Positions 3,620 to 53,179 of a stretch of DNA of 64,000 bases are shown here, piece by piece (position 1 is the stretch's first letter; each line of letters opens with the position of its first letter). The DNA lies in IMG/VR virus record IMGVR_UViG_3300027771_000009, positions 1-64,000 of that record; one strand, 5' to 3'. The translations under genes were made by a program, and so were the position numbers. Below the pieces are notes generated by a model, which ran no database searches, had not been told where the DNA came from, and worked only from the letters and a program-made list of their open reading frames with translations. Source of the stretch: a virus.

Positions 3620-3990
3620 ACATAAAGACTCTTAAAAACATAATGAAAGAGGTTAATCAACCTAAAGAGTTTACATTAACACCTGTAAATCTAACACATG
3701 AATTGTATTGGATTTGGAAGGTTACTAATTGTAGATTAAAAACTTTAGATAGTAGATTGGAATCTCTTAGGAAGCCTGATAGTAGATTTGATATATTTGT
3801 ATGGGGTGGATTCATATCACATAACGATTTCAAATTTGAACAAGTTGGAAATGATTTTCATATAAAATTTATAAGAACAAACTTTCCATCAACTATTTTA
3901 AATCCAAATGACCCTAATTATGGTCAACCTTGGGGTTTTGAAGATAGTGATTCGGTGAAAATTGAAGGTGATTTAGAAAATGTAATATAA
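3616..3990 (+). CDS. Unknown protein in neck operon
   Basis: A 124-residue protein that I do not recognise. The first 65 residues look helical and basic (LKTLDSRLESLRKPDSRF). The rest is beta-rich with aromatic residues (DIFVWGGF, FHIKFIRTNFP). It has no signal peptide, membrane segment or known motif. The ATGA overlap with the gp15 gene and the TAATG overlap with the next gene place it firmly in the neck-to-fibre operon. A small virion or tail-completion role is plausible but is inference only. Confidence 0.75.
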   Translation: MNIKTLKNIMKEVNQPKEFTLTPVNLTHELYWIWKVTNCRLKTLDSRLESLRKPDSRFDIFVWGGFISHNDFKFEQVGNDFHIKFIRTNFPSTILNPNDPNYGQPWGFEDSDSVKIEGDLENVI

Positions 3991-34449: not shown

Positions 34450-37400
34450 ATGAAATACACAGGTAAAAACCCAAATGGTTTAAATCAAATCAGTCAAAGT
34501 TTACTATCATTAGATGTAAATGGAGTTGAGCAACTAAATATTTCAACTGATTCGGTTATTATTAACACCGAATTATCAGTTGAGAAAGGTATTTCTGCCG
34601 TTTCATATACTGGTTCGGTATTTAGTGGAAGTGAGGTGGTTACATCCACACTTACTGCAGATGGTATCGTTGTAGGTACGATAGATGGTACAATTATTAG
34701 TGGTACTGAATTTAGTGGCTCATTTAGTGGGTCTTTTGAAGGTGACGGAAATTCTATAACCAATATACCTACATCAGCATTGGTTGGTGATATCAATAGA
34801 ATTGCTGAAGGTGATTCTAACGCAACTATAACTGATGATAAACTTTCAATAAATGTTGATACTGATATAACTGGTTCAGTATTAGTAACAAACACACTTT
34901 CAGCATCTTTTGTAGAAGGTGATGGTAGTAGGTTGTTTAATATATCAGCTGATTCGGTTGGTGATATTAATAGATTACAATCTGGTTCCGCAACAGCTAT
35001 AATCTCTCCTAATGAAGGTTTAGTTACCAATGTAGGAATTGTAACTCAAAAGTATTTGGGTGTGTCTGGTTCTGCTAATATAGCTGGAGACTTAGATGTA
35101 GAAGGAACTGCAACAATCCAAAACTTAAATGTTGAGGGAATAATTACAACAACTGAGTTAAAGGCAACTTACATTTCATCATCAATAATTTACGCAACTG
35201 GTTCAAACAAATTTGGAGATGATTCTTCAGCTGTTCAAGAGTTTACTGGTTCGGTTAGAATAAAAGATACAATACAAATACCAAAATATTCATCAGACCC
35301 TGCATCTGGTAGAGTTGGTGAAATATATTACAACGATACTGATACTAACATATATCGATATACAGGTACCGAATGGTTAGAGGCAGCTGGAACGGCTGGT
35401 TCTTCTGGAACATCTGGAACATCTGGAACATCTGGTACTTCTGGTTCTTCTGGTACATCTGGTACATCTGGTTCTTCTGGAACATCTGGTGAAGATGGTA
35501 CTGATGGAAGCGGTGGTACTTCTGGTACTTCTGGTACTTCTGGTACATCTGGAACATCTGGTTCTGGTGGTACATCTGGTTCTGGAGGCACATCAGGAAC
35601 TTCTGGTACATCTGGAACGTCTGGTTCTGGTGGTACATCTGGTACTTCTGGAAGTAGTGGTACAAGTGGTACATCTGGTTCTTCTGGTGAAGATGGTACT
35701 GATGGTAGTGAGGGTACTTCTGGTACTTCTGGAACAAGCGGTACTTCTGGTACTTCTGGTTCTTCTGGTACAAAGGGAACTGCTGGTAGTGGAGGAACAT
35801 CTGGTTCATCTGGATTTGGTTCGTCTGGTACAAGTGGTAGTGGTGGAACTGCTGGAACTGGTGGTAGTGGTGGTACTTCTGGTACTTCTGGTACTTCTGG
35901 TACTTCTGGTACTTCTGGTACTTCTGGTGAAGATGGTACTGGTGGAACATCTGGGACAAGTGGAACATCTGGGACAAGTGGAACAAACGGAACTGCTGGA
36001 ACTGGTGGTAGTGGAGGTACTTCTGGTACTTCTGGTACATCGGGAACTTCAGGTACATCTGGTACATCTGGTACATCCGGATTGGATGGAGCTACTGGAA
36101 CTGGTGGAGCTACTGGTACATCTGGGACAAGTGGAACATCTGGAACATCTGGAACATCTGGAACAACCGGTACTTCTGGAACAAGCGGTACTTCTGGAAC
36201 ATCTGGAACTAACGCAACGGCTGGTTCTGGTGGAACGGCAGGTACTTCTGGAACTTCTGGAACTTCTGGTACTTCTGGAACAAGCGGTGTTGATGGTACA
36301 TCAGGAACATCTGGGACAAGTGGAACATCTGGAACATCTGGAACTAACGGAACTGCTGGTAGTGGTGGTACAAATGGAACTGCTGGAACTGGAGGAACTT
36401 CAGGAACGAACGGAACTGCAGGAACTGGTGGTACAAATGGAACTGCTGGTAGTGGAGGTACATCTGGTAGTGGTGGTACAAATGGAACTGCTGGAACTGG
36501 AGGAACTTCAGGAACGAACGGAACTGCAGGAACTGCTGGAACTGGTGGTACAAATGGAACTGCTGGTAGTGGGGGTACATCTGGTACATCTGGGACAAGT
36601 GGAACATCTGGAACATCTGGAACATCTGGAACAACCGGTACTTCTGGAACAAGCGGTACTTCTGGAACATCTGGAACGAACGGAACTGCTGGTAGTGGTG
36701 GTACAAATGGAACTGCTGGTAGTGGAGGTACATCAGGAACAAATGGAACTGCTGGTAGTGGAGGTACATCCGGAGCATTAGCATTAACTGGTACTACTAA
36801 CAATGGTTTACTTACCTATGATGGTACTGGGGCAAACGTTGAGAGTAATCTTACTTTCGATGGAACAACATTAAACTTAACTGGTAACTTAAATGTTACT
36901 GGTACACAAACAACTGTCAATACTGAAATAATTCAATTGGCAGATAATATTATAACTCTTAATTCAAACTTTACAACTGGTACTCCATCGGAGAATGCAG
37001 GTATTGAAGTATTAAGAGGTTCATCATCAACAAAATCATTTTATTGGAAAGAATCATCAGATAGATGGTATTCAGATTCAAACTTTGAAGTGTTTGGTGA
37101 TTTATATACACAACGCATAAATACTGGACAAGGACTTACTGAGGTTTACAATATGAACCAAAACGTTCGTTCAACTGATTCACCTACATTCGATGGATTA
37201 ACCATTGGTGATAGTGGTAACACAGGTACAACTCTAAACATTATAGCAACAAATACTGCTGGTTCTGGTGCACAAACCGCTATGATTAATATGAGTGGTT
37301 ATGAAGGTAGAGCAATTGGTACTATGTTTACTGATGTATCTTATAGTGGTAGAGAATGGTTTGCTGGTTTACGATATAGTGGTGGATTCGCAAATTACCA

Positions 37401-40400
37401 AATTGGATACGATTTAACTGGTGGACAAGCTGAATACGCAACGAACTCAATGCTTACCATAAACGATAGTGGAAACGCATTTTTCAAAGGGTATGTATCA
37501 GCTACGAGTTTTAGACCAACTAACATAGTAACAAATAGAATTGTTAAATTTGATGGAACTGATTTAGATGATTCTATAATGAGTGATGATGGTTCTACTG
37601 TAACTCTTAGTGGTAATTTAAGTGTAACTGGTAACATTGTTGGTGACCTAAGTGGTGTTGCTAATGATGCAAATAGATTAAAAGCCGAAGATAATAGAAC
37701 TATCTCACCATCGGAATTAGGTGTAGGTAGATTAAAATTTGGATTCACATCATACAATAATAATAATTCAGGTCCTTGGGCTGATTTCTTACATCTACGT
37801 TCGTACACCGATTCATCTGGTGGCTCGGATAACTTAGTGATGTTTAATAAGAGTGGTATTGGAATGAGAATCTGGCAACAAAGCTTCGGTTCTGCAACCG
37901 CATACTCATCTTATGTAGATGTGTTAGATACTGGTGCTGGTAACCAAACAAAGAGTGGATATATACAATCCAATTCTTCGTTAAGAGCACCGATATTCTA
38001 CGATTCAAACAATACTGGGTATTATGTAAATCCAGGAGCTACTGATTATTCAGCTGTATTTAGACAGCACGTTACAATAGGGGATAGTTCACAATATAAA
38101 CCTAACTCAGGTAATTGGGGAGCAAGATTGAACGTAGTAGATAATGTCCATGCTAAAATAACAGTTGGGCAAGATGCTAACGATATGTTGAGTGTATGGT
38201 ATGCTCATACAGGACAATCATCTGCTAAATTTGGAATGGAATCAAACCATAACTTAGAATTTATTACAAATAATAGTACTAAGTTAACAATTGATACTAA
38301 CGGTAACACCCAAGCAACAACCTCGTTAAGAGCACCGATTTTCTATGATTCAAATGATACTGGAAGATATGTAAATCCAAATGGTACATCACAACTGGGT
38401 ACTATCAATATGAACAATGGTAATTTAACCGGAGTTAATCATATTACTATTAATGACCCTGGCCCAACTGAAGGTATTTCTTGGGCTGGTGGCAATCTTT
38501 GGAGAATTGTAGAATCACCTGATAATATATCAACTAATAGCGGTGGTAATTTACAAATAATTCAAAACTCTACCCGTAGAGCAACATTTAGAACTGATGG
38601 AAGTTTAAATTTACCATCTGGTGTGTTATTATCAAATGTAACAACAAATTGGCAACAATCTGCTAATAAAACAAACTTATTAAGAGGAGGTTCTTTTAGT
38701 AATACATTAAGCAACGATACATCAACCATAAAAATATTCCCAGCAACTGCTGGTAGAGGAATTGGAAACTATTGGGGTGGTATGTACTTCATGCACTTAG
38801 ACCCTCAGAATTCTGGATGGGGCTCATCTTATACTGGTGGGCAAATGTGGATTGGTGGTAGAGTAATTGACCAACCTGGTCAAGAACGAAGTGCATTAGT
38901 ATTCGCTACAAATAATTCAACAAGTGCAGGTTCACATCCATCTGAGAGAATGACTATTTTACCTGATGGTAATGTGTTAATCGGACAAACTTCGGTATCA
39001 TATACAAATTCAGATAATACTCCGTTAGTGGGTGCTAAAACAAATAGTAAGTTACACATCAACGGTGGGATACAATTAACTAACGACAACGATGCTATCG
39101 TATTTGGTAGAGGTACTTCTACCTTTATGAAAGATGAAGAGCTTGGCTTCGGATGGGGTGGTGGTTTATATATGACCGATACTACTTACCTAAGAATCCG
39201 AAATAATAAAATTGTTTACAATACTAATGAATTTAGAGGTAATTTATTTAGAGATGTTAATAATTCCGCATACTATGTAGACCCAGCATCAACATCAAAC
39301 TTAAATTCAATTACCGCTCAAGCAATAACTGTAAAGGGTAATCAGGTAAGAACTTATAAGCATTCTGGTTCTGATTTTACAAATGGTACATTAGTACAAA
39401 CTGATATACCATCATCATCAACTTCAGGAGCATCATTTGTGTTAGAGGCAACTGGTAAAAGTTATAGTGCGGATACTCCATTCTCATTTATGGCACAGGG
39501 GTATTTGTATAATAACACTATTATAAATTCAAGTGGTGTACACTTTGGTAAACCAGGGTTCACTCAAATGAAGGTATTTAATAATGGTGGAACATTAGCA
39601 TTCTGGTGGCCAAGAGTATCTTATTGGAATTCATTCTCAGTTAACGTTAGAGATGCTGGTGGTAGTGAGTTTAATAGAGTAACCTCTATTGGTAACTCAA
39701 CTGAACCAACTGGTACTAAGAAGGTAACGATAACAATGAAGGTATCGACTGTGTATAACCAAAACATCAATACTGGTGATTTATACGCAACTCGTTATTA
39801 TGATTCAAATAGTACTGGTTATTATTTAGACCCTGCTTCTACATCATACTTAAATGATGTAAGAGCTGATATATTTTACGATAGGAATGATACAAACTAT
39901 TACACAAACCCAGCTTCAACTTCTAGGTTAAATACTGCTAATATAACAACATTAAATACCTATGGTACAACTACTTTAGGTAATGGTAACAATGATACAA
40001 CTAATATCAATGATACTCTTAAATTATGGGCTACCGATAGTGGTGATGCTCACTTCTACTTTGGTGAAAGTTCATCTAGTGGATATGGTGACCATTATTA
40101 TTGGGATAGTAGTTATACAACATATCATTACAGTAGAAATGCTGGAACTGATTCATTAATATCGAAACATGATACTCGTAATACCGATAGGATAACATAT
40201 GGTAGAAATATTTCGTTTGATGATTATGGTAAGGGAATTACAGGTAGATACTCAGCAAGTAGATACCAATTACTATTCTCTATGGGGGATGCATATCAAC
40301 TGCCTGATAGTGGTACAAGTACTGGTAACTTATATGGTGTAGCTTGGTCACATCCAAACGCTGGAGGTGCTGCAAGTAACCTAAATGACCACGGTATGTT

Positions 40401-43400
40401 AATTCTACTGAATGGTACTTTTAAGGCAGCAATATCAAGTAGAGCAGTATTTACAGATGAAGTAAGAGGAACATTATTCAGAGATTATAATAGTAGTGGA
40501 TATTACTTAGACCCTGCATCAACATCAAACTTAAATGTTGTAAATGCAAATACATTTAATGGTACTTTTAATGGTACATTAACTGGTACGGCTCAAAACG
40601 CAAATCATTTAAATACAACGAGAGATACTCCTGAGAACTCATTACAATATTGGCAAGCATCTGGTCTTGGTATTACTGAGGCACCAACAACGGATTGGCA
40701 TAATACTATAAGAATGGGACATGGTTCACCATTATCCTATTATAGTAATACATTGGCAATTCGTATGACTGGTTCTAATGTGGGTGATATCTACACCCAA
40801 ACCATTCAGAGTGGTAATAGACAAGGTTGGAAAAGACATTGGAATGATGGTATAGCTATTAATTCAACATATGATATATCGGCACCAATATTCTATGATA
40901 TAAATAATACTGGATATTATGTAAACGCTGCTTCAACTTCTAGATTTAATAGATTAGACTTCGGTAATAGTTCGTATTACATTCACTCTGGTGATTGGGG
41001 TATGCGAAACACAACACCATCTGGTTGGATTCAATTTGGACCTGCTAATACAAGTCATGCACACATTTATACTGATAGAAGTAACTTCTACTTTAATAAA
41101 CAGATTAATGTATTGGGTGGTTCTCAGATGAATCAAAGTGATGTTAGAGGTAACATATTCTATACTAAGAATAATACTGCATATTATATTGATGGTGACG
41201 GTCAATCTAGATTAAATACGCTTACCTTAGTTGGTAATCGGATTGGATTCGTTAACACATCATTTGATGCTGAAATTAGAGTAAGTGATGATAATCCAAA
41301 CGGAACTGGAGCTGAATTTGTATTCTATGGTGATACTCTTGCTGGACATGCACAACTTACTGCTAAGGTTGGTAACTTTACATCAAATGTAAGAACTCCG
41401 ATAATGTACGATTCAAATGATACTTCGTATTATATAAATGCAGCATCCGATAGTAGACTGAATGGAAAATTACAAGTAGATGGTTCACATGGTGATACAC
41501 AAATAGGTCTTAGATTACCTGCGGCTAGCAACGGAGCTGGTACTGGTGATGTAAATTTACAAATGTGGGTTTCTGAACCAGGTAATACTTGGGATTGGGC
41601 TGGATTTGGATATAACGTTAGTAATAGTATTAATGGTGGTGGTGGTGCACCAAACTTTGGTAGACATAATACTTCACATGGACAGGGGTATATGAGATTC
41701 AGTACTGGTGGTGATATCTATTTCTATAACACAAATACATCAGGTACTCGTTATCAGACGATGTCGTGGAACGCAAATAACACTGTTACTGCTAACAACT
41801 ATTTAACTGGAACAAATTCATTAAGAGCACCAATTTTCTATGATTCAAATGATACTGGACATTACTTAAATCCTGCATCTACTTCTAGACTTAATAGAAT
41901 AGATGTTGATATAATGTATGATAGAGATAATACATCATATTATGTTAGACCTGGTTCAACATCGTTATTTAATGATGCAAGAGCTAACATATTCTATTCT
42001 CGTAGTAATACTGGATACTATTCAGATCCTGAATCGACATCACGTCTAAATCAGGTAACTGCTAACTCAATTGATGCAACTAACATTAACAATACGGATG
42101 TATGGTCTGGTGATATTAATGTTGGGGGTGATGCAAATACATATTATCCTGTAACGTGGTATGGTGGAAATCAAGCTATTGTTTGTGAGATAGAAATTTA
42201 TAGAAATTACAATGAAACCGCACCTTGGGACCCAATCGGAACAGGATCTCATAAAGGTGGATTAACGTTCAGACATACTACCAACTTTGGTGGATGGGGT
42301 GGAGCATCCTATGAAAGCAATATTGAAGATTTTAGAGAATCATATACAACAATGGTAGCTGATGTACAAAGATTCGCTAATAGTAGAGGATGGTGTATAT
42401 GGTTAAGAGGTGGTGGAGCAGTATATCACGTTAGAATTAAAGGTAGAAGTGTTGGACCAACTGTAACCCTTGGAGCTTATGACCCTGGTGGTAATGGTAC
42501 TGGTGTTACATCAAGAACTGATACACCTAAAACTAATTTATATAGTAGATTTCATTTACGTAATCAATACGTATATGCTGATAGATTTTATGATAACAAT
42601 AATACTGGATATTACTTAGACCCTGCATCTACATCGTATTTAAATGATGTAAGGGCTAACATTTACTATGAAAGAGAAAACACCGCATACTACTTTGGTA
42701 GTTCGCAAGGTGATTTCAGAATGAGAAATGGTAGAATGGGTAGTGTTACCATTGAAAATGGTTCAACTCTTACATCGGTTAATGGAAATGGTAGAATTTA
42801 TATGGGTGGTAACTTCCATATTGATGCATATAATGGAAACGATATCTATGTAAACTATTATTCTAATAGAAGATTCAGAGTATTCAATGGTTCATCTAAT
42901 GAATCGTTTAGAGTAGATACTGATAGAATTGTTTACGCATACTCACAACTTCGTACTCCAATTGTTTACGATTATAATGATACTGGATATTATTCAGACC
43001 CTAGAAGTACATCTAGATTCAATGAGATGCGTGCAACGTATAGATTACACATTGGTGATGAATCTAATTTATACAATGGTGTAGTTGGTGAAGCTCGTAG
43101 ACCTGACTTAACTATTAAAGGACAGTATCCTCAGTTAAACTTAATGTCATCTGAGATTAACAATAGTACTCATGGACCTACTCTTAGATTTGTTGCATAT
43201 GATGGTGCAAACGCATCTTCTGGTAACAAAAAACATTGGGTAATTGGTACTGCTGGTACAAACGCAACCGCATTACACTTTGGATACACTCCAAATAACA
43301 ATAATCCTCATTATGGAATTGGACAAGGTTGGAGTAGTGGAAACAATGTTTCTATGTTCTGGTTACAAAACGATAGACATGTTTACGCTCAAAATGATGT

Positions 43401-46365
43401 AAGAGCTGGATTATTCAGAGATAGAAATAATACTGGATATTACGTAGACCCGGCATCTAATTCTGTTTTAAACACAGCAACTTATAATGGTACGATACGA
43501 CTTAATACTCGTCATGGTACGGTAGCAACTAACTATGGTTATGGTAACTATGGTGTATATAGTGCTTCTAGGTATCAATTATTATGGTCAATGGGTACTT
43601 CATACAATTTACCGAATGGTGGTGAAAACACTGGTAACTTATATGGTGTAGCTTGGTCACATCCAAACGCTGGAGGTGCTGCAAGTAACCTAAATGACCA
43701 CGGTATGTTAATTCTACTGAATGGTACTTTTAAGGCAGCAATATCAAGTAGAGCAGTATTTACAAATGAAGTAAGAGGAACATTATTCAGAGATTATAAT
43801 AGTAGTGGATATTACTTAGACCCTGCATCAACATCAAACTTAAATGCAGTAAATGCCAACTCTATGAATGTTGGTGGTTCACCGGTTGTAACTGGTACGT
43901 CTATTCAAAACTACACTCGTAATGTAGATGATGGTAATTTCTTCAATATTACGGATGATATGAACGCTACTGAAGTTGCTCGTCAAGTTTCTGGTGGAGG
44001 TGGAACTTCTAGACTTACTAAAGTGGATGATAACACCGCACCAGCTGCTGGTTGTTTCGAAGTAAACGGACAGTGGTCCCCAACTCATTCGGATTACATC
44101 AAAATTGATGCAAACTCCGAATATGTGTTCGAAGTTTGGATAAAATATGTTGCAGGTACTGATAGTAGTTGTGCATTGTATATGGGTGGTTCCGCATATA
44201 ACGCTTCAAAATCATACTTTGGTAATACAAATAGATATTGGGCAGCATCTTATGTAGAAGTCGATTCTAATACTAGAAACAATGGTTGGTATAAAATAAG
44301 TGGTAAAATTGGTGGTATTGGTGGAACGGCATTTACGGCAGGAACTGAATACATCAGACCGTTATTCTTATTTAACTATGCTGGTAATAGTACACATAGA
44401 ACGAGGTATTGTGGATTAAAACTTTACAAATCGGAAAAGACAGTTAGTAAATTACACTTCCATAGTCAAGGTAGATATGTACACACCGAATCGGATGAAT
44501 TGTATCCATTCTTACGTGGAGAAGGTAATCAATCTCTAGTAATCCAATCTGGTACAGGTTGGGCTAAAATGGGTTCTAGAAACACATCACATTTACATAT
44601 GGAAACGGATAGAAGTTCTTGGTACTTCTATAATCGTATTGAAACTCCATCTGATATTAGAGCAGGTTTATTCTACGATAGAAATAATACTGCTTATGTA
44701 GCAAATCCCGCTTCTACATCGTACTTTAACGATATGAGGGCAAATATCTTCTATGATAGAAACAATGCTTCATATTATGGACATTTCGATTCTACATCTC
44801 GATTTAATAGAGCAGATTTAAACGATACTCGTTCAGATATATTCTACGATAGAAATGACACTGGTTATTATATAAATCCTGCTAGTGTTAACTCTTCTCG
44901 ATTCGAAGGAGTTAATGATAGAACGAGAGCACAATTAGGAAACGCCGCATCACGTCATAGTAGTGCAGCTACATTCATGCGTAGACCAAACTATACATCT
45001 GACCAAAACTATTGGGTAGGTTCAATGGGGTGGGGTACTCAGAATATGAACAACGTATTCAATTGGGGTTCTGGATTTACTGATTCTTGGTCTAATCCAG
45101 GTAATCAACCATCTGGTACATCGCATTGGGTAGGTATACAATCACTACACTATACTAATGGTTCAACTCGTTATGGTTGGCAAATGACTGGTGGTCCAAT
45201 TGATAACCTACGATTCAGAAATCAATGGGGTGGTTCACCAAAAGCTTGGAGAACTATTCCTGTACTTGATATCAATAACGGTAATGGTGGTTCAATGTAT
45301 GCGGGCAGATATTATGATTCAAATAATACTGGATATTACGCAGACCCTGCATCTACATCTGTATTTAATGCATTAACTGTAAACGGAACATTATCAGCAA
45401 ATTTACCTTGGAGTAGAGTTACTTCAAAACCTGATGGTTGGTTAAATGCAGGAACTCTAACCAGAAATGCGGCACCAACTGGAATTAAGCCAAGTGGGTT
45501 CTATGATTCATATCAAGGTTCTGGAAATCCTACTGGTACTTGGATGTCTTACTATAATGTACGACATACCAACAGCGGCAACAACTACGGTCATCAGGCT
45601 GGTATGAGTTTCTATGATGATACCTTTTGGTTTAGAGCGTTTACAAACAATAGTTATAGACAATGGCAATTTGTACTATCATCTAATGGCACTGCACAAA
45701 CAAAATCAGGTGTATTACAATCCAACTCATCTTTAAGAGCACCGATATTCTACGATAAGGATAATACTGGGTATTATACAAAGCAAAGTGGTGTATCGGA
45801 AATGTCAAATATAGCTATTGATAGTTACATCAGACATAGAGGTGATACTAACACATATATGCAGTTCCATGCGGCTGACCAATGGAGAGTTGTAACTGGT
45901 GGTACTGAAAGATTTGAGGTGAATAACTCTCAAATCTATATGACTAGAGAATTGAGATGTACACAAGATGTTATCGCATTTTATTCTGATGAAAGATTAA
46001 AAGAAAAGACTGGTAAGATTGAATCTCCATTAGATAAGATTTCTCAATTGGATGCATTCTATTATGTAAATAATGATTTAGCAAAATCAGTTGGATATGA
46101 AGATGATAAACAACAAATAGGTTTATCAGCTCAGCAAGTTAAAGAAGTAATGCCTGAGGTTGTTCATTCAGCACCATTCGATACTGATTTTGATGAGGAT
46201 GGTAATATGTTCTCTACATCTGGTGAAGATTACTTAACTCTTAAATACGATAGATTAGTTCCATTATTAGTTGAAGGTATTAAAGAACAAACTGAAATTG
46301 TGAAATCTCAACAAAGAGAAATAGATGAATTGAAGGAAATGGTAAAACTTTTACTAAATAAATAA
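34450..46365 (+). CDS. Giant collagen-like tail fibre with S74 intramolecular chaperone (3971 aa)
   Basis: An 11.9-kb frame. Residues about 1-313 are SGS-type beta repeats like those of the 3921-aa fibre. Residues 314-775 are a collagen-like Gly-X-X tract rich in GTS, GTA and GSG. From about 850 to 3800 the protein has some 22 copies of a repeat centred on (A/G)xIFYDSNNTGYYVDPASTSRLN. These are separated by diverse beta domains rich in Trp/Tyr that could bind glycans. Residues from about 3844 are a peptidase S74 chaperone (SDERLKEKTGKIESPLDKIS). It should trimerise the fibre and then be cut off. The N-terminal SGS repeats may bind the particle. It lies 13 nt after a small beta-protein gene and ends before a hairpin and the sheath promoter. 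Confidence 0.9.
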   Translation: MKYTGKNPNGLNQISQSLLSLDVNGVEQLNISTDSVIINTELSVEKGISAVSYTGSVFSGSEVVTSTLTADGIVVGTIDGTIISGTEFSGSFSGSFEGDGNSITNIPTSALVGDINRIAEGDSNATITDDKLSINVDTDITGSVLVTNTLSASFVEGDGSRLFNISADSVGDINRLQSGSATAIISPNEGLVTNVGIVTQKYLGVSGSANIAGDLDVEGTATIQNLNVEGIITTTELKATYISSSIIYATGSNKFGDDSSAVQEFTGSVRIKDTIQIPKYSSDPASGRVGEIYYNDTDTNIYRYTGTEWLEAAGTAGSSGTSGTSGTSGTSGSSGTSGTSGSSGTSGEDGTDGSGGTSGTSGTSGTSGTSGSGGTSGSGGTSGTSGTSGTSGSGGTSGTSGSSGTSGTSGSSGEDGTDGSEGTSGTSGTSGTSGTSGSSGTKGTAGSGGTSGSSGFGSSGTSGSGGTAGTGGSGGTSGTSGTSGTSGTSGTSGEDGTGGTSGTSGTSGTSGTNGTAGTGGSGGTSGTSGTSGTSGTSGTSGTSGLDGATGTGGATGTSGTSGTSGTSGTSGTTGTSGTSGTSGTSGTNATAGSGGTAGTSGTSGTSGTSGTSGVDGTSGTSGTSGTSGTSGTNGTAGSGGTNGTAGTGGTSGTNGTAGTGGTNGTAGSGGTSGSGGTNGTAGTGGTSGTNGTAGTAGTGGTNGTAGSGGTSGTSGTSGTSGTSGTSGTTGTSGTSGTSGTSGTNGTAGSGGTNGTAGSGGTSGTNGTAGSGGTSGALALTGTTNNGLLTYDGTGANVESNLTFDGTTLNLTGNLNVTGTQTTVNTEIIQLADNIITLNSNFTTGTPSENAGIEVLRGSSSTKSFYWKESSDRWYSDSNFEVFGDLYTQRINTGQGLTEVYNMNQNVRSTDSPTFDGLTIGDSGNTGTTLNIIATNTAGSGAQTAMINMSGYEGRAIGTMFTDVSYSGREWFAGLRYSGGFANYQIGYDLTGGQAEYATNSMLTINDSGNAFFKGYVSATSFRPTNIVTNRIVKFDGTDLDDSIMSDDGSTVTLSGNLSVTGNIVGDLSGVANDANRLKAEDNRTISPSELGVGRLKFGFTSYNNNNSGPWADFLHLRSYTDSSGGSDNLVMFNKSGIGMRIWQQSFGSATAYSSYVDVLDTGAGNQTKSGYIQSNSSLRAPIFYDSNNTGYYVNPGATDYSAVFRQHVTIGDSSQYKPNSGNWGARLNVVDNVHAKITVGQDANDMLSVWYAHTGQSSAKFGMESNHNLEFITNNSTKLTIDTNGNTQATTSLRAPIFYDSNDTGRYVNPNGTSQLGTINMNNGNLTGVNHITINDPGPTEGISWAGGNLWRIVESPDNISTNSGGNLQIIQNSTRRATFRTDGSLNLPSGVLLSNVTTNWQQSANKTNLLRGGSFSNTLSNDTSTIKIFPATAGRGIGNYWGGMYFMHLDPQNSGWGSSYTGGQMWIGGRVIDQPGQERSALVFATNNSTSAGSHPSERMTILPDGNVLIGQTSVSYTNSDNTPLVGAKTNSKLHINGGIQLTNDNDAIVFGRGTSTFMKDEELGFGWGGGLYMTDTTYLRIRNNKIVYNTNEFRGNLFRDVNNSAYYVDPASTSNLNSITAQAITVKGNQVRTYKHSGSDFTNGTLVQTDIPSSSTSGASFVLEATGKSYSADTPFSFMAQGYLYNNTIINSSGVHFGKPGFTQMKVFNNGGTLAFWWPRVSYWNSFSVNVRDAGGSEFNRVTSIGNSTEPTGTKKVTITMKVSTVYNQNINTGDLYATRYYDSNSTGYYLDPASTSYLNDVRADIFYDRNDTNYYTNPASTSRLNTANITTLNTYGTTTLGNGNNDTTNINDTLKLWATDSGDAHFYFGESSSSGYGDHYYWDSSYTTYHYSRNAGTDSLISKHDTRNTDRITYGRNISFDDYGKGITGRYSASRYQLLFSMGDAYQLPDSGTSTGNLYGVAWSHPNAGGAASNLNDHGMLILLNGTFKAAISSRAVFTDEVRGTLFRDYNSSGYYLDPASTSNLNVVNANTFNGTFNGTLTGTAQNANHLNTTRDTPENSLQYWQASGLGITEAPTTDWHNTIRMGHGSPLSYYSNTLAIRMTGSNVGDIYTQTIQSGNRQGWKRHWNDGIAINSTYDISAPIFYDINNTGYYVNAASTSRFNRLDFGNSSYYIHSGDWGMRNTTPSGWIQFGPANTSHAHIYTDRSNFYFNKQINVLGGSQMNQSDVRGNIFYTKNNTAYYIDGDGQSRLNTLTLVGNRIGFVNTSFDAEIRVSDDNPNGTGAEFVFYGDTLAGHAQLTAKVGNFTSNVRTPIMYDSNDTSYYINAASDSRLNGKLQVDGSHGDTQIGLRLPAASNGAGTGDVNLQMWVSEPGNTWDWAGFGYNVSNSINGGGGAPNFGRHNTSHGQGYMRFSTGGDIYFYNTNTSGTRYQTMSWNANNTVTANNYLTGTNSLRAPIFYDSNDTGHYLNPASTSRLNRIDVDIMYDRDNTSYYVRPGSTSLFNDARANIFYSRSNTGYYSDPESTSRLNQVTANSIDATNINNTDVWSGDINVGGDANTYYPVTWYGGNQAIVCEIEIYRNYNETAPWDPIGTGSHKGGLTFRHTTNFGGWGGASYESNIEDFRESYTTMVADVQRFANSRGWCIWLRGGGAVYHVRIKGRSVGPTVTLGAYDPGGNGTGVTSRTDTPKTNLYSRFHLRNQYVYADRFYDNNNTGYYLDPASTSYLNDVRANIYYERENTAYYFGSSQGDFRMRNGRMGSVTIENGSTLTSVNGNGRIYMGGNFHIDAYNGNDIYVNYYSNRRFRVFNGSSNESFRVDTDRIVYAYSQLRTPIVYDYNDTGYYSDPRSTSRFNEMRATYRLHIGDESNLYNGVVGEARRPDLTIKGQYPQLNLMSSEINNSTHGPTLRFVAYDGANASSGNKKHWVIGTAGTNATALHFGYTPNNNNPHYGIGQGWSSGNNVSMFWLQNDRHVYAQNDVRAGLFRDRNNTGYYVDPASNSVLNTATYNGTIRLNTRHGTVATNYGYGNYGVYSASRYQLLWSMGTSYNLPNGGENTGNLYGVAWSHPNAGGAASNLNDHGMLILLNGTFKAAISSRAVFTNEVRGTLFRDYNSSGYYLDPASTSNLNAVNANSMNVGGSPVVTGTSIQNYTRNVDDGNFFNITDDMNATEVARQVSGGGGTSRLTKVDDNTAPAAGCFEVNGQWSPTHSDYIKIDANSEYVFEVWIKYVAGTDSSCALYMGGSAYNASKSYFGNTNRYWAASYVEVDSNTRNNGWYKISGKIGGIGGTAFTAGTEYIRPLFLFNYAGNSTHRTRYCGLKLYKSEKTVSKLHFHSQGRYVHTESDELYPFLRGEGNQSLVIQSGTGWAKMGSRNTSHLHMETDRSSWYFYNRIETPSDIRAGLFYDRNNTAYVANPASTSYFNDMRANIFYDRNNASYYGHFDSTSRFNRADLNDTRSDIFYDRNDTGYYINPASVNSSRFEGVNDRTRAQLGNAASRHSSAATFMRRPNYTSDQNYWVGSMGWGTQNMNNVFNWGSGFTDSWSNPGNQPSGTSHWVGIQSLHYTNGSTRYGWQMTGGPIDNLRFRNQWGGSPKAWRTIPVLDINNGNGGSMYAGRYYDSNNTGYYADPASTSVFNALTVNGTLSANLPWSRVTSKPDGWLNAGTLTRNAAPTGIKPSGFYDSYQGSGNPTGTWMSYYNVRHTNSGNNYGHQAGMSFYDDTFWFRAFTNNSYRQWQFVLSSNGTAQTKSGVLQSNSSLRAPIFYDKDNTGYYTKQSGVSEMSNIAIDSYIRHRGDTNTYMQFHAADQWRVVTGGTERFEVNNSQIYMTRELRCTQDVIAFYSDERLKEKTGKIESPLDKISQLDAFYYVNNDLAKSVGYEDDKQQIGLSAQQVKEVMPEVVHSAPFDTDFDEDGNMFSTSGEDYLTLKYDRLVPLLVEGIKEQTEIVKSQQREIDELKEMVKLLLNK
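35389..36774 (+). repeat. Collagen-like Gly-X-X tract in third giant fibre
   Basis: Encodes residues 314-775 as GTS, GSG, GTA, GTN and GED triplets without proline. It is richer in Gly and Ala than the tracts in the 3921-aa fibre. Reverse-strand open frames with VPxVPxVP repeats are by-products of this composition. Confidence 0.9.
40321..40537 (+). repeat. 217-bp near-identical repeat, copy 1
   Basis: Matches 43630-43846 base for base except G40456/A43765. It covers a fibre segment starting TGNLYGVAWSHPN and running through the YYLDPASTSNLN repeat. The flanking sequence upstream codes for similar protein but has diverged at DNA level. Confidence 0.9.
43630..43846 (+). repeat. 217-bp near-identical repeat, copy 2
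   Basis: Second copy of the duplicated segment at 40321-40537, in direct orientation, with a start-to-start distance of 3309 bp (a multiple of three, so in frame). Confidence 0.9.
45979..46365 (+). other. Peptidase S74 intramolecular chaperone domain
   Basis: The last 130 residues of the 3971-aa fibre. S3846 and K3851 (SDERLK) match the Ser-Lys dyad of the endosialidase chaperone family. Further family features are LDKISQLDAFYY, QIGLSAQQVKEVMPEVV, LKYDRLVPLLVEGIKEQ and a C-terminal coiled coil. Cleavage at S3846 would release a fragment of about 126 residues. Confidence 0.85.
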
Positions 46366-48790: not shown

Positions 48791-49279
48791 ATGGCAGAAG
48801 TATTAGAATTTAACGAAATGATGTTCACCAACTTCGAACCGAAGATGAAGAACCGATTTATAATGGAGATTGATGGAATTCAATCTTACCTTATAAAAAC
48901 TGCGGCAAGACCTTCAATCAACTTCGAAACTGTGAAACTAGACCATATCAATACTTACCGCAAATTGCAAGGTAAGGGAGAGTGGCAAGATATAACAATC
49001 TCACTATATGACCCAATTGTACCTTCAGGTGCACAGCAGGTTATGGAATGGGTACGTTTAGGATATGAATCTTTAACTGGTAGAAAAGGTTACGCCGATT
49101 TCTACAAAAAGGATATTGATTTTTATATGTTAGGACCTGTTGGTGATAAGATAGAGCAGTGGAAGTTAAAAGGAGCATTTATTACTTCGGCAAACTTCAA
49201 TGATTTAGATTTCTCTTCTAATGATGCAGCTGATATCGAATTAACGTTATCTTATGATTACGCGATTTTAGAATTCTAA
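48791..49279 (+). CDS. 19: Tail tube protein, T4 gp19-like
   Basis: Forms the inner tube through which DNA passes. The 162 residues match the length and layout of T4 gp19 (163 aa). Features include an N-terminal F--M---NFEPKMKNRFIMEIDG and the P-INFETVKLDHINTYRK segment. These are followed by WQDITISLYDPIVPSGAQQVMEWV and a C-terminal GAFITSANFNDLDFSSND with a final strand LSYDYAIL. These fit the Hcp/tube beta-barrel with its subunit-joining loop. It follows the sheath gene and ends at a strong intrinsic terminator, which fits very high expression of both. Confidence 0.93.
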   Translation: MAEVLEFNEMMFTNFEPKMKNRFIMEIDGIQSYLIKTAARPSINFETVKLDHINTYRKLQGKGEWQDITISLYDPIVPSGAQQVMEWVRLGYESLTGRKGYADFYKKDIDFYMLGPVGDKIEQWKLKGAFITSANFNDLDFSSNDAADIELTLSYDYAILEF

Positions 49280-49305
49280 AATATAACACATATTTTATAT
49301 AATAG

Positions 49306-49338
49306 AAAGGTTCCCTTGATTGGGAACCTTTTTTTTAT
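49306..49338 (+). terminator. Strong intrinsic terminator after tube gene
   Basis: AAAGGTTCCC (49306-49315) pairs with GGGAACCTTT (49322-49331) over 10 bp with a 6-nt loop, followed directly by a run of T (to 49336). Confidence 0.9.
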
Positions 49339-49386: not shown

Positions 49387-50145
49387 ATGACAAAGCATGA
49401 CTTTCCAACTGAAGTGATTAGTTTACCATCTGAAGGTAAATGTTATCCTTCTACAAATCCACTTTCTTCCGGTCAAATTGAAATAAAATATATGACAGCA
49501 AGGGAAGAAGAAATACTAACATCGCAAAACTTAATCAAAAAAGGTGTAGTTTTAGATAAATTATTTGAAGCTATTATAGTTGATAAGGGTGTTAATCCAG
49601 ACGATATCATATTGGGTGATAAGAACGCTATTATGTTAGCAACTCGATTATTGGGATATGGTAAGGAATATACTGTTGAGATGTTAGATTCCGAAGAAAC
49701 CAAACATAAGGTTGTAGTTGATTTATCAACAGTACAAACAAAGGAGATTGATATAACAACTTTAAACCCAGAAAATACGTACAAATTCACAACACCATTT
49801 GGTAAAAATGAACTTGAGTTCAAATACCTAACACATGGTGATGAAAAGGCAGTTGATATTGATGTAAAGGCATTAGCTAAGTTTAATAAAGGTGGCACTT
49901 CATCAGAATTAACAACTCGATATAGATATATGATTAAATCAGTAGATGGTGAATCGGATACTAAATCAATAGTTCATTTTATAAACAATAAGTTTTTAGC
50001 TAGAGATACAAGAGCATTTAGAGATTTCGTAAAGGCAAATCAACCTGATATGAAAATGGAGTTTAACTATATAGACCCAGAATCGGGAGAAGAGGAGGTA
50101 CGCTCGATTCCTATGGGCGTAGGGTTTTTTTGGCCTTCCGAGTAA
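49387..50145 (+). CDS. T4 gp26-like baseplate/tail-assembly chaperone protein
   Basis: A 252-residue protein. The N-terminus (LPSEGKCYPSTNPLSSGQIEIKYMTAREEEILTSQNLIKKGVVLDKL) is what I recall for gp26-type baseplate hub proteins of T4-like phages (T4_baseplate family). It lies between the tube gene and the tape measure gene. Many tailed phages keep their tail-assembly chaperone in this place, expressed as a short and a frameshifted long form. The gene ends in IPMGVGFFWPSE on a GGG-T7-GG run (50122-50133), and a second open frame without ATG continues for 72 codons beyond it. The short form is the zero-frame product. Whether it is a virion part or a chaperone cannot be decided from sequence. 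Late-type box 22 nt upstream. Confidence 0.8.
   Translation: MTKHDFPTEVISLPSEGKCYPSTNPLSSGQIEIKYMTAREEEILTSQNLIKKGVVLDKLFEAIIVDKGVNPDDIILGDKNAIMLATRLLGYGKEYTVEMLDSEETKHKVVVDLSTVQTKEIDITTLNPENTYKFTTPFGKNELEFKYLTHGDEKAVDIDVKALAKFNKGGTSSELTTRYRYMIKSVDGESDTKSIVHFINNKFLARDTRAFRDFVKANQPDMKMEFNYIDPESGEEEVRSIPMGVGFFWPSE
50122..50133 (+). promoter_or_regulatory. Probable programmed ribosomal frameshift site
   Basis: Zero-frame codons GGG TTT TTT TGG form a T7 run. A shift of +1 or -2 on Phe codons leads into the frame open to 50338. The spacing to the zero-frame stop (50143-50145) is 10 nt. The long product would be about 316-317 aa. Confidence 0.6.
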
Positions 50146-50338
50146 CTATTCTAAGTTATTGCACACACAAATTTTTGAATTATGTTACTATGGTAATGGA
50201 TTCATTCAATCGGATGTGTATAGATTACCGGTCCACCTACGAAACTTCTACTATAAAAGTTTGTTAGATACAAAGAAAAAAGAGAAGGAATCGCAAGAGA
50301 AATCAGAAAGACAATCAAAAGTGAAGGTTAGAAAATAA
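50123..50338 (+). CDS. Frameshift-extension domain of the tail-assembly chaperone
   Basis: An open frame of 71 sense codons with no ATG (first near-cognate start is TTG at 50159). It encodes LLHTQIFELCYYGNGFIQSD, then VYRLPVHLRNFYYKSLLD and a Lys/Glu-rich tail. The pattern (I)FEL-YYGNG-F--S-VY-(M/L)P-(H/Y)LR-FY is what I know from short ORFs or C-terminal extensions found next to gp26-like or chaperone genes in T4-like and other phages. With no start codon and no ribosome-binding site, it is probably made only as a fusion with the upstream protein. It would bind the tape measure during tail assembly. Its stop lies inside the following terminator. Confidence 0.65.
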   Translation, partial: GFFGLPSNYSKLLHTQIFELCYYGNGFIQSDVYRLPVHLRNFYYKSLLDTKKKEKESQEKSERQSKVKVRK

Positions 50339-50353
50339 TCTTCACTTTTTTTA
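50317..50353 (+). terminator. Intrinsic terminator overlapping the frameshift ORF end
   Basis: AAAAGTGAAG (50317-50326) pairs with CTTCACTTTT (50340-50349) over 10 bp with a 13-nt loop, with the T-run extending to 50352. The stop codon at 50336-50338 lies in the loop. Confidence 0.8.
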
Positions 50354-50389: not shown

Positions 50390-50653
50390 ATGAAAATAAC
50401 AGAAAATCAAAAGAAACGATTAGTTTCAGCTGTTGCCAAACAACATAATATGAATGAAGGAATTGTAAGTACACTTCTAAAGTATGTATTGGCAAAAAAG
50501 CTTATGAGGGACCCTGATATTAAACGAATAGCTAAAAACTTAGATAAAGTAACTAAGGATGCTAGAGCTAAGTTTGATGATATGGAGGCTAAGGGTGAAG
50601 TAAAACGAACACCTGAATTAATTGCATTGAGAAAATCATTGGGTATAGAATAA
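50390..50653 (+). CDS. Small helical protein before tape measure
   Basis: An 87-residue basic, helical protein (MKITENQKKRLVSAVAKQHN, then LAKKLMRDPDIKRIAKNLDK). It has no membrane segment, signal peptide or known motif. It is the first gene of the tape measure/baseplate operon and lies 9 nt before the tape measure gene. It might help tape measure assembly, but that rests on position alone. The length and charge could equally fit a small DNA-binding or virion protein. I do not recognise the family. Confidence 0.7.
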   Translation: MKITENQKKRLVSAVAKQHNMNEGIVSTLLKYVLAKKLMRDPDIKRIAKNLDKVTKDARAKFDDMEAKGEVKRTPELIALRKSLGIE

Positions 50654-50662
50654 TAACTACAA

Positions 50663-53179
50663 ATGGCCGATAACTTAGATAAAAACGCAGCTAAACAAAG
50701 GGAATCTATTAGATTAGAGAAAGAATACCAGGAAGCACTAAAGATGTCATCATCTTTATCTAATCAAATTACCAGTGCGTTAAGTTCCCAAGTCGATTTT
50801 AGAACTAAGTTAGGTAAAAAAGTTAAGGAGTATTATAAGGATTTGGAATCCAATATTTCTAATTTGGAATCATCGGACGATATTGCAAAGGAACTTTTAA
50901 GAATAGAAGAAGAAAAGGCTAAGGTTAGTAAAAACTACTTTGGTACAAATGAAAAGGTTGGTAAGCAAAAATTACAAGCATTAAGTATAACCGAAGAAAG
51001 TTTAAAAGTTGAACAAGGTAGGGTAGGTGCAATTGAAGAAGTTGCTAAACGAACTGAAGCATTTACTGATTCTTTAGGAAGTGGTTTAGATAGTGCTTTA
51101 TCTGGATTTGATGCAATACCTGGTATAGGTAGTTCATTAAAAAATATGGCACAGGGCCCAATTAACGGATTAAAGAGTAGTTTCAAAGAAGTTGGTAAAT
51201 CATTTACAACCAACTTCGCTACAAATTTAAGAGGTGGAGCTGGTATGATGAAATCTCTACAAATGGCCGGTGGTATCGCTGGTAAGGGTTTAATTGCTGC
51301 ATTAACCGGACCACAAGCTATTATAGCTCTTATAGTTGCCGGAATTGCAGTAGGTATAGCTAGATTTGTGGCAATAGAAGCAGCAGCTAAAAAGTTTAGA
51401 GAGGAAACTGGTTTATTAAATTCCCAAATGGGTAATTTAAAGAAGGATATAAATAGTGTATCTACATCTATGGCAGATTTGGGTGTAGATGCATCCGATG
51501 TTGCTGGAGCGGCAGCAGCTTTCTCCAATGAAATGAAGGGAACTTCTATGGCTAGTAAAGGTGTACTAACATCAATGGTTGCTATGGAAAAGAGTTTTGG
51601 GGTATCTGCCGCAACTCAAGCAAAAGTAAATAATACATTCCAATTAATGTCTGGGGCATCTGATACAACTGCCCAAAAAATGATTCAAACCACTATTGCA
51701 GCTGCAGAATTAGCTGGAGTAGCACCAGCAGCAGTTATGCAAGATATTGCAGAAAATGCTGAAGCTGGATTGATGCACTTTAGGGGTTCTACGAAAGCAT
51801 TAGCAAACGCAGCAATTGAGGCTAGGAGAATGGGTACATCTATTGGAGAAACTACTAAAGTAGCCGAAGGTTTATTAGATTTTGAATCATCAATTACAAA
51901 AGAATTGGAATTGGGTGCTATGTTGGGTACTCGTGTTAACTTCAATAAGGCAAGAGCGTTAGCATTTGAAGGTAAGACTGTTGAAGCTCAAAAAGCTGTA
52001 AACGCAGAAGTAAGTAAGTTAGGTGATATCAACAAAATGAATATGTATCAGAAGCAGGCCTTAATGGGTGCAACTAATATGGATTTAAAGAGTTTGATTA
52101 AACAACAATCAATAGCTAAAAAATTCAAAGGTATCGATGGAGACCGATTAGCAGCAGTAAATTCATTATTGGATGCTGGGATGTCAATCGAAGCTATAAG
52201 TGATAAGGCACTTGAAAACGAAGCTAAGAAATTGGGTGCACAAAAGGCAATGCAATCTGAAACTGATAAGATGGGAAATACATTTAGTGCTCTTGGGACA
52301 GCTGTATCAGATATGTTCATGCCACTTGGTACATTCTTAATGCCATTACTTAGCGATGTATTTGAAATGGTTAATAATGTTTTACTACCGGTATTTAGTA
52401 TGATAGGAACTGTGCTTAGAATTGCATTTGGAGTATTATCAGCAGTACTAAGACCTGTATTTGCTCTAATAAAAACATTAGCAGCTGCATTAATGGAACC
52501 ATTCAGAGCTATTAGTGAGGCAATTAGACCAATTGGTGATAAATTTGAAGAAATAGGTCCAAGAATATTAAAAGCTATGGCACCTGTATTATCATTCATA
52601 AAAGTATTAGGTAAAGTAATTGGTGAAATAGTTGGGTTTGTGGTTGGTGGTCTTGTAGATGGGTTTATATTCGCATTTGATATAATATTTAGTATATTTG
52701 AAGGCGCCTACAATTTTGTAGATACCTATTTAATATCACCACTTATGAGTATGATTGATATGATTCAAACGGGAATTGATGCATTAGCATCTTTAAATCC
52801 ATTTGGTAGTAGTGATGATGAACTTGTAAGTGAAGCTAGCCAACTACAATCAGGTGGAAGTATAGATGATGGTATTGTACAAGATGGTAAGATTATATCA
52901 ACACATCCAGAAGATACGTTAATAGCAACAAAAACTCCAGAAAGCTTATTTAATGAATCAACGGGTGGTGGTGTTTCTAACGTTGTAGGTGGTATTGGTG
53001 AAATGATGGGTGGTCTTTTTGGTGGTGATAGTGGTGATTCGCAAATTGGTACTAAATTGGATGAACTAATCATTGTGATGAAAGCTAACAAAGATTTTTA
53101 TATAGATGGTAAGAAAGTAACAGCATCCGTTTCAAGCACTGTTGATAAGATAGGTTCTAACTCATACGCAATAGTTTAA
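50663..53179 (+). CDS. Tail tape measure protein
   Basis: Sets tail length and sits inside the tube before infection. The 838 residues start with a helical, charged segment (about 1-150; coiled-coil-like EEEKAKVSKNYFG). A hydrophobic Gly/Ala-rich stretch follows at about 209-238 (QAIIALIVAGIAVGIARFVA), then a long helical Ala/Met-rich middle. A second hydrophobic zone lies at about 575-690 (VLRIAFGVLSAVLRPVFAL; GEIVGFVVGGLVDGFIFAF), and the end is Gly/Ser-rich (GGSIDDGIVQDGKIISTHPE). The hydrophobic zones fit the membrane-active parts of tape measures. Position after tube and chaperone genes and before the baseplate genes supports the call. A full-length tape of this size suggests a tail of roughly T4 length or longer. 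Confidence 0.85.
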   Translation: MADNLDKNAAKQRESIRLEKEYQEALKMSSSLSNQITSALSSQVDFRTKLGKKVKEYYKDLESNISNLESSDDIAKELLRIEEEKAKVSKNYFGTNEKVGKQKLQALSITEESLKVEQGRVGAIEEVAKRTEAFTDSLGSGLDSALSGFDAIPGIGSSLKNMAQGPINGLKSSFKEVGKSFTTNFATNLRGGAGMMKSLQMAGGIAGKGLIAALTGPQAIIALIVAGIAVGIARFVAIEAAAKKFREETGLLNSQMGNLKKDINSVSTSMADLGVDASDVAGAAAAFSNEMKGTSMASKGVLTSMVAMEKSFGVSAATQAKVNNTFQLMSGASDTTAQKMIQTTIAAAELAGVAPAAVMQDIAENAEAGLMHFRGSTKALANAAIEARRMGTSIGETTKVAEGLLDFESSITKELELGAMLGTRVNFNKARALAFEGKTVEAQKAVNAEVSKLGDINKMNMYQKQALMGATNMDLKSLIKQQSIAKKFKGIDGDRLAAVNSLLDAGMSIEAISDKALENEAKKLGAQKAMQSETDKMGNTFSALGTAVSDMFMPLGTFLMPLLSDVFEMVNNVLLPVFSMIGTVLRIAFGVLSAVLRPVFALIKTLAAALMEPFRAISEAIRPIGDKFEEIGPRILKAMAPVLSFIKVLGKVIGEIVGFVVGGLVDGFIFAFDIIFSIFEGAYNFVDTYLISPLMSMIDMIQTGIDALASLNPFGSSDDELVSEASQLQSGGSIDDGIVQDGKIISTHPEDTLIATKTPESLFNESTGGGVSNVVGGIGEMMGGLFGGDSGDSQIGTKLDELIIVMKANKDFYIDGKKVTASVSSTVDKIGSNSYAIV

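Follow-up and report, generated by a model that had tools for sequence, protein, structure and literature searches.

A T4-type phage tail chaperone gene predicted to make a short and a long form by +1 programmed frameshifting

Reading frames at the chaperone locus

The window analysed here, positions 1-64,000 of the 80,880-base virus record IMGVR_UViG_3300027771_000009, contains a gene for a predicted short tail assembly chaperone (TAC-N) resembling T4 gp26, followed by a second domain in the +1 frame. The zero-frame open reading frame (ORF; 49387..50145) encodes 252 amino acids (aa) and ends with TAA at 50143-50145, approximately 10 bases 3' of a run whose letters read GGG (50122-50124), T7 (50125-50131) and GG (50132-50133). 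Within this run UUU UUU UGG (50125..50133) is the candidate slip site, as judged from a motif tally over 190 loci. A TAG at 50120-50122 closes the +1 frame directly 5' of the run; the open stretch that follows (50123..50338) comprises 71 codons (50123-50335) and a TAA at 50336-50338. No ATG was found in this frame between 50123 and 50338, the earliest start-like codon being a TTG at 50159. All of these features lie on the plus strand. The initial annotation had placed the zero-frame stop 10 nucleotides (nt) after the GGG-T7-GG run, had described a shifted frame open for 71 codons without an ATG, and had noted that the -1 frame is also open for a while; each of these readings is confirmed, the -1 frame extending approximately 41 codons beyond the zero-frame stop.

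A +1 shift, with one base skipped at the second TTT, would generate a fusion of 316 aa, and a -2 shift one of 317 aa. The predicted junction peptide for the window sequence is SIPMGVGFFGLPSNYSK with +1 and SIPMGVGFFFGLPSNYSK with -2, whereas the zero frame ends with SIPMGVGFFWPSE. The C-domain of the 316-aa long form (TAC-NC; 50132..50335, plus strand) is a helical segment of 68 aa that corresponds to the C-terminus of T4 gp51. Considered together with the comparative evidence below, the locus is very probably a chaperone gene of a T4-type contractile-tail phage that makes both forms by a +1 programmed shift.

The protein family

The zero-frame product matches phrog_150 (baseplate hub) with an E-value (E) of 3.1e-8; a Pfam search with the window's product returned no match, and more distant relatives exceed the cut-off of PF12322 (T4_baseplate). 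The two protein parts were folded separately with AlphaFold. The zero-frame product was modelled with a predicted local distance difference test (pLDDT) score of 90.5, and its best structural matches are predicted T4-type baseplate hub proteins, with E down to about 1e-19. The C-domain model has a pLDDT of 81 and no match in the PDB, and a sequence search of solved structures gave no matches.

T4 gp26 and gp51 are themselves paralogous (hhalign E 3.6e-20), gp51 having an extra C-domain. Direct HMMER comparison of the fused family with the T4 proteins was too weak, and profile-profile comparison was used instead. The +1-frame C-domain aligned with the C-domains of gp51 and of relatives that encode theirs in the -1 frame (the -1 class, described below) with an hhalign probability of 94.3% and E 1.1e-7, compared with 0.07-0.7 for reversed or shuffled controls. 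These comparisons assign the zero-frame product to the T4 gp26/gp51 family. Because the C-domain matches the gp51 C-terminus, the short form would be equivalent to gp26 and the long form to gp51. The expectation that a frameshift here would tie gp26 to the chaperone family is thus borne out, but the link itself was already in the literature: PMC3004832 lists the two T4 proteins among chaperones of hub assembly, and the tail assembly chaperones of T4-like phages were identified by Vladimirov et al. 2022, according to passages in two citing papers (PMC10885494, PMC12846349).

Conservation of the second frame

The sample comprised 190 homologous loci in which the junction is present, equivalent to 74 clusters at 80% identity, drawn from viral contigs, from named phages and from phage contigs in bins that mostly carry a Bacteroidota label. 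Locus identities range from 21 to 100%, the lowest (21-27%) occurring in Bacillus phage SP-15, Listeria phage LIS04 and Streptococcus phage GXN1. In 188 of the 190 loci no stop interrupts the +1 frame from a Phe-Phe (or Phe-Leu) codon pair onwards, through the zero-frame stop and as far as the domain or the contig extends. Downstream of that stop, the 66 complete clusters contain no stop among 3300 codons of the +1 frame, compared with 349/3300 in the zero frame and 138/3366 in the -1 frame, and a 50-codon open -1 frame occurs in just 7 of them. The openness of the +1 frame is far beyond chance. The ratio of nonsynonymous to synonymous polymorphism (pN/pS) is 0.25 in this frame versus 1.2-1.3 in the others, and the second frame is under purifying selection.

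The two exceptions, L185 and L190, have lost the slippery codons (TTC TTG TAT and TTC CTT TGG instead); their +1 frame is closed and the C-domain ORF has its own ATG just 3' of the stop. It had been suggested at the outset that homologues with an independently started second ORF would argue against a frameshift. Since such homologues are restricted to these two loci without a slip site, they support the frameshift instead. An alignment of homologous loci had also been proposed as a check; it shows the second frame to be conserved as above, with the T run itself as short as 3 T in variants.

Existing annotations of this region can be corrected, as those of phages immuto and SP-15 either lack the second domain or give just a short hypothetical ORF in its place. 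The 'hypothetical protein' of immuto (L081 4845-4955, 36 aa) and that of SP-15 (L088 3764-3883, 39 aa) each begin at an internal start and cover just the 3' end of the C-domain in the +1 frame; they are annotation artefacts.

The proposed slip site and its flanking structures

The commonest motifs among the 190 loci are TTT TTT TGG CCT (n=112) and TTT TTT TAC CCT (n=48), with variants TTC TTT TGG (14 loci), TTT CTT TGG, TTT CTA TTC, TTC TTT CGT and TTC TTT TAC. At the second Phe position 67 clusters have TTT and no cluster has TTC, even though TTC accounts for 185 of the 699 Phe codons in the same genes; the log10 P of this absence is about -11.6, a value that presumes independent clusters, which is not fully so. 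The P-site codon is able to re-pair one base forward, as in release factor 2 (RF2), on UUU U or UUU C in 72/74 clusters, or on CUU U. The window does not have the features of a -1 site: a G precedes the run, the C-domain is in the +1 frame, and there is no 3' structure above control.

A hairpin with the arms TACGCTCG and TGGGCGTA (50099..50121, plus strand) leaves 3 nt between its end and the first Phe codon, the codon that would occupy the E site during the slip, and is a suspected +1 stimulator. Across the +1 class, the strongest structure signal comes from the region immediately 5' of the slip site, and the 3' end of the stem lies 0-4 nt before the first Phe codon in 52/74 clusters. Relative to codon-usage recoding the hairpin gave z -1.35 (controls -0.02 and -0.11), with 38% of clusters at p<=0.05; relative to GC-matched recoding it gave z -0.87 (controls -0.35 and -0.33), with 12/72 at p<=0.05. 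Because z drops with GC matching and the register varies among +1 clusters, the 5' hairpin is retained as a stimulator with moderate support at the level of the family. On the 3' side, a dinucleotide-shuffle test of the +1 class revealed nothing above control (z -0.66 vs -0.54). The -1 class shows the opposite pattern, with a hairpin after the site (GC-matched recoding z -2.51, 32/58 at p<=0.05) and no upstream structure by the same recoding (z 0.02). An Rfam search gave no match.

In designed mRNAs, a hairpin adjacent to the E site promotes +1 and opposes -1 shifting, like the Shine-Dalgarno duplex of RF2 (Huang et al. 2018, PMC6321510). The anti-Shine-Dalgarno is occluded in Bacteroidia ribosomes, although the RF2 gene prfB of Bacteroidia nonetheless retains a Shine-Dalgarno-type +1 site (PMC8710568). 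Given this occlusion, a hairpin would be a sensible substitute for a Shine-Dalgarno helix, and ribosomes of Bacteroidota that hide the anti-Shine-Dalgarno have perhaps favoured such an upstream-hairpin mimic. Listeria phage LIS04 (L089, around 3670-3700) has a GGAG directly 5' of the slip site and no hairpin, an arrangement resembling the internal Shine-Dalgarno of RF2; a general reliance of Firmicute phages on an internal Shine-Dalgarno instead of a hairpin would rest on this one case.

Weighing the alternatives

A -2 slip, of the type reported for phage Mu, would lead into the same frame at the price of one extra Phe, and the T7 run of the window allows re-pairing for both shifts. The variant sites are more discriminating. 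At TTC TTT NNN, exemplified by the TGG, CGT and TAC variants, a -2 slip would place the Phe-tRNA on UCU, whereas a forward step gives UUU or UUC. Because TTC TTT TGG and TTC TTT CGT permit cognate re-pairing forwards only, the shift is best read as +1, and a -2 slip appears unlikely; of the "+1/-2" shift first proposed, the programmed shift into the +1 frame stands and the -2 alternative is disfavoured. The T7 run could also cause RNA polymerase to slip and produce mRNAs of mixed length, but the arrangement is kept in relatives with runs of just 3-4 T (TTTCTTTGG, TTCTTTTGG, TTCTTTCGT), which makes this explanation highly improbable.

It is very unlikely that the second ORF is a separate gene, expressed without fusion from a non-ATG start (the TTG at 50159) or by re-initiation after the stop. 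The ATG-started ORFs just after the stop in L185 and L190 would be the models for such a gene, but ATG, GTG or TTG occurs within the first 16 second-frame codons in 12/66 clusters only, at varying places; moreover, the frame extends without a stop as far back as the slip codons, and these show synonymous constraint; the same domains are linked in T4 gp51 and in the -1 class. A homopolymer at the junction could likewise reflect a sequencing or assembly error, or a decaying gene. The probability of this is negligible, as the same state recurs in 188/190 loci from independent assemblies and complete phage genomes; error and decay are excluded by this conservation and by the pN/pS of the second frame.

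Several observations weigh against the +1 frameshift, which is predicted from comparative sequence data. Taken by itself, the 5' hairpin of the window does not reach significance (p 0.12 and 0.20), and no conserved Shine-Dalgarno-like element was found just upstream of the slip site, where the window has GTAGGG and relatives have GTTAAC, GTAAAC, GTTACG and others. Foldseek ranked the HK97 chaperone 2OB9 (HK97 gp13 fold) fifth with E 0.91 and a probability of 0.35, which is not significant. In favour of the shift, the chaperone gene is present in a single copy, so that this record has no second gene to supply the long form; against it, the record is incomplete and a second copy could be located elsewhere, although several larger relatives also have a single copy.

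In the proposed +1 mechanism, most ribosomes would stop at 50143 and release the 252-aa short form. A fraction with Phe-tRNA on the second UUU (50128-50130) in the P site would slip forward onto UUU 50129-50131 and read GGC (50132) next, yielding the 316-aa long form; both the slip and the ratio of the products are inferred. The forward step may be helped by the 5' hairpin, which lies next to the E-site codon. If the analogy with lambda G/GT holds, the two forms would act as chaperones that coat the tape measure protein, the C-domain recruiting tube subunits, and neither form would remain in the virion. Production of both forms from a single gene by this route appears to be shared by a large group of T4-type phages, most of them from sources associated with Bacteroidota.

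Gene neighbourhood

The chaperone gene is placed between the genes for a gp19-like tail tube protein (48791..49279; PF06841 E 1.4e-9, phrog_4542) and a tape measure protein (50663..53179; phrog_167 E 2.7e-11), all on the plus strand. The tube gene lies upstream in 186/187 testable relatives and the tape measure gene downstream in 129/149. An 87-aa ORF (50390-50653) between the chaperone and tape measure genes is present in 27/165 testable relatives and has no family match. Terminator-like hairpins are located on the plus strand between the tube and chaperone genes (49304..49333; similar in 44/73 clusters vs 1/73 control windows) and where the second frame ends (50317..50349; 35/65 clusters), which suggests that the chaperone gene is its own transcription unit. 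SP-15 has an annotated terminator at the place matching the 49304-49333 hairpin. Further upstream, a 3971-aa ORF (34450-46365) with long TSG/GTSG repeats and many 'FYDxNNTGYYxDPASTS' repeats is probably a tail fibre; its C-terminus resembles a self-cleaving fibre chaperone domain.

Relatives with other arrangements

The gene is present once in P-SSM2, S-PM2, HTVC008M, phiM12, KVP40 and PhiW-14, and twice in T4 and KP15. In the six single-copy phages the zero frame ends with FF plus at most two residues, the site, TTT TTC or TTT TTT, has a T in front of it, and the -1 frame encodes the C-domain. All of 80 S-PM2 relatives have an open -1 frame and none has an open +1 frame, and the -1 arrangement also occurs in the huge phage LR756511 and three related contigs. 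A T precedes the run in all S-PM2-type -1 loci, whereas no TTT TTT +1 site in the 74 clusters has one. In an approximately unbiased (AU) test the +1 group was compatible with one clade (p 0.56) and the -1 group was rejected as one clade (p 0.0004). The direction of frameshifting therefore changed inside this family; the tree is unrooted, so the ancestral direction is not given by it. A fuller account can be proposed tentatively, with a likelihood somewhat short of even: the direction changed between -1 and +1 at one and the same Phe-Phe pair while the stimulator moved from a 3' hairpin to a 5' E-site hairpin, a natural upstream-hairpin mimic of the Shine-Dalgarno duplex.

In Klebsiella phage KP15 (L094 1501-2795) and Citrobacter phage CfP1 (L095), gp51 and gp26 are adjacent in tandem, versus the divergent pair of T4, and this is consistent with a local duplication. 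One homologous position has four solutions, an apparent +1 shift, a -1 arrangement, the duplicated pair of T-even phages and the split gene of two contigs, and provides a direct test bed for what sets frameshift direction.

The title of the study by Vladimirov, Gautam and Davidson from 2022 reportedly stresses a mechanism other than frameshifting, and the -1 class may already be described there. The passage on that study in PMC10885494 mentions some T4-like phages with a short gene and a fused long gene, and a passage in PMC12846349 describes -1 signals of the poly-T type in TAC-N genes of T4-like phages. Systems of this kind are known; as far as the literature searched shows, the novelty lies in the +1 direction within the T4 gp26/gp51 family, in how widely it is conserved and in the switch of direction at a single homologous position.

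Comparison with known systems

The gene shares with T4 gp26/gp51 (PF12322 / phrog_150) a homologous N-part and a long form carrying the gp51 C-domain. In contrast to the two separate paralogous genes of T4 and KP15, a single gene here has its C-domain in the +1 frame. The cyanophage-type -1 relatives are closer, with the same gene in single copy, the same Phe-Phe position and a homologous C-domain; they differ in a -1 arrangement at U UUU UUC/U with a strong 3' hairpin, whereas here the shift would be +1, no U precedes the run and there is no clear 3' structure. Lambda G/GT, P2 E/E', SPP1 17.5/17.5* and Mu likewise derive short and long forms from one gene between the tube and tape measure genes, although no sequence similarity of the present chaperone to any of the four was detected. 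Their frameshifts are mostly -1, that of Mu being -2.

A chaperone shift that is very likely +1 has been described in the archaeal myovirus HSTV-2 (PMC5009743). P-site re-pairing onto UUU is predicted here as in RF2 (prfB) and the hairpin constructs of Huang et al. 2018 (PMC6321510), in which a duplex at the E site promotes +1 shifting and works against -1. In RF2 the shift takes place at a stop codon with the help of a Shine-Dalgarno helix, whereas here the next codon is a sense codon (UGG/UAC) and the suspected stimulator is an intramolecular hairpin; those of Huang et al. are designed constructs, and the hairpin suspected here would be a natural one.
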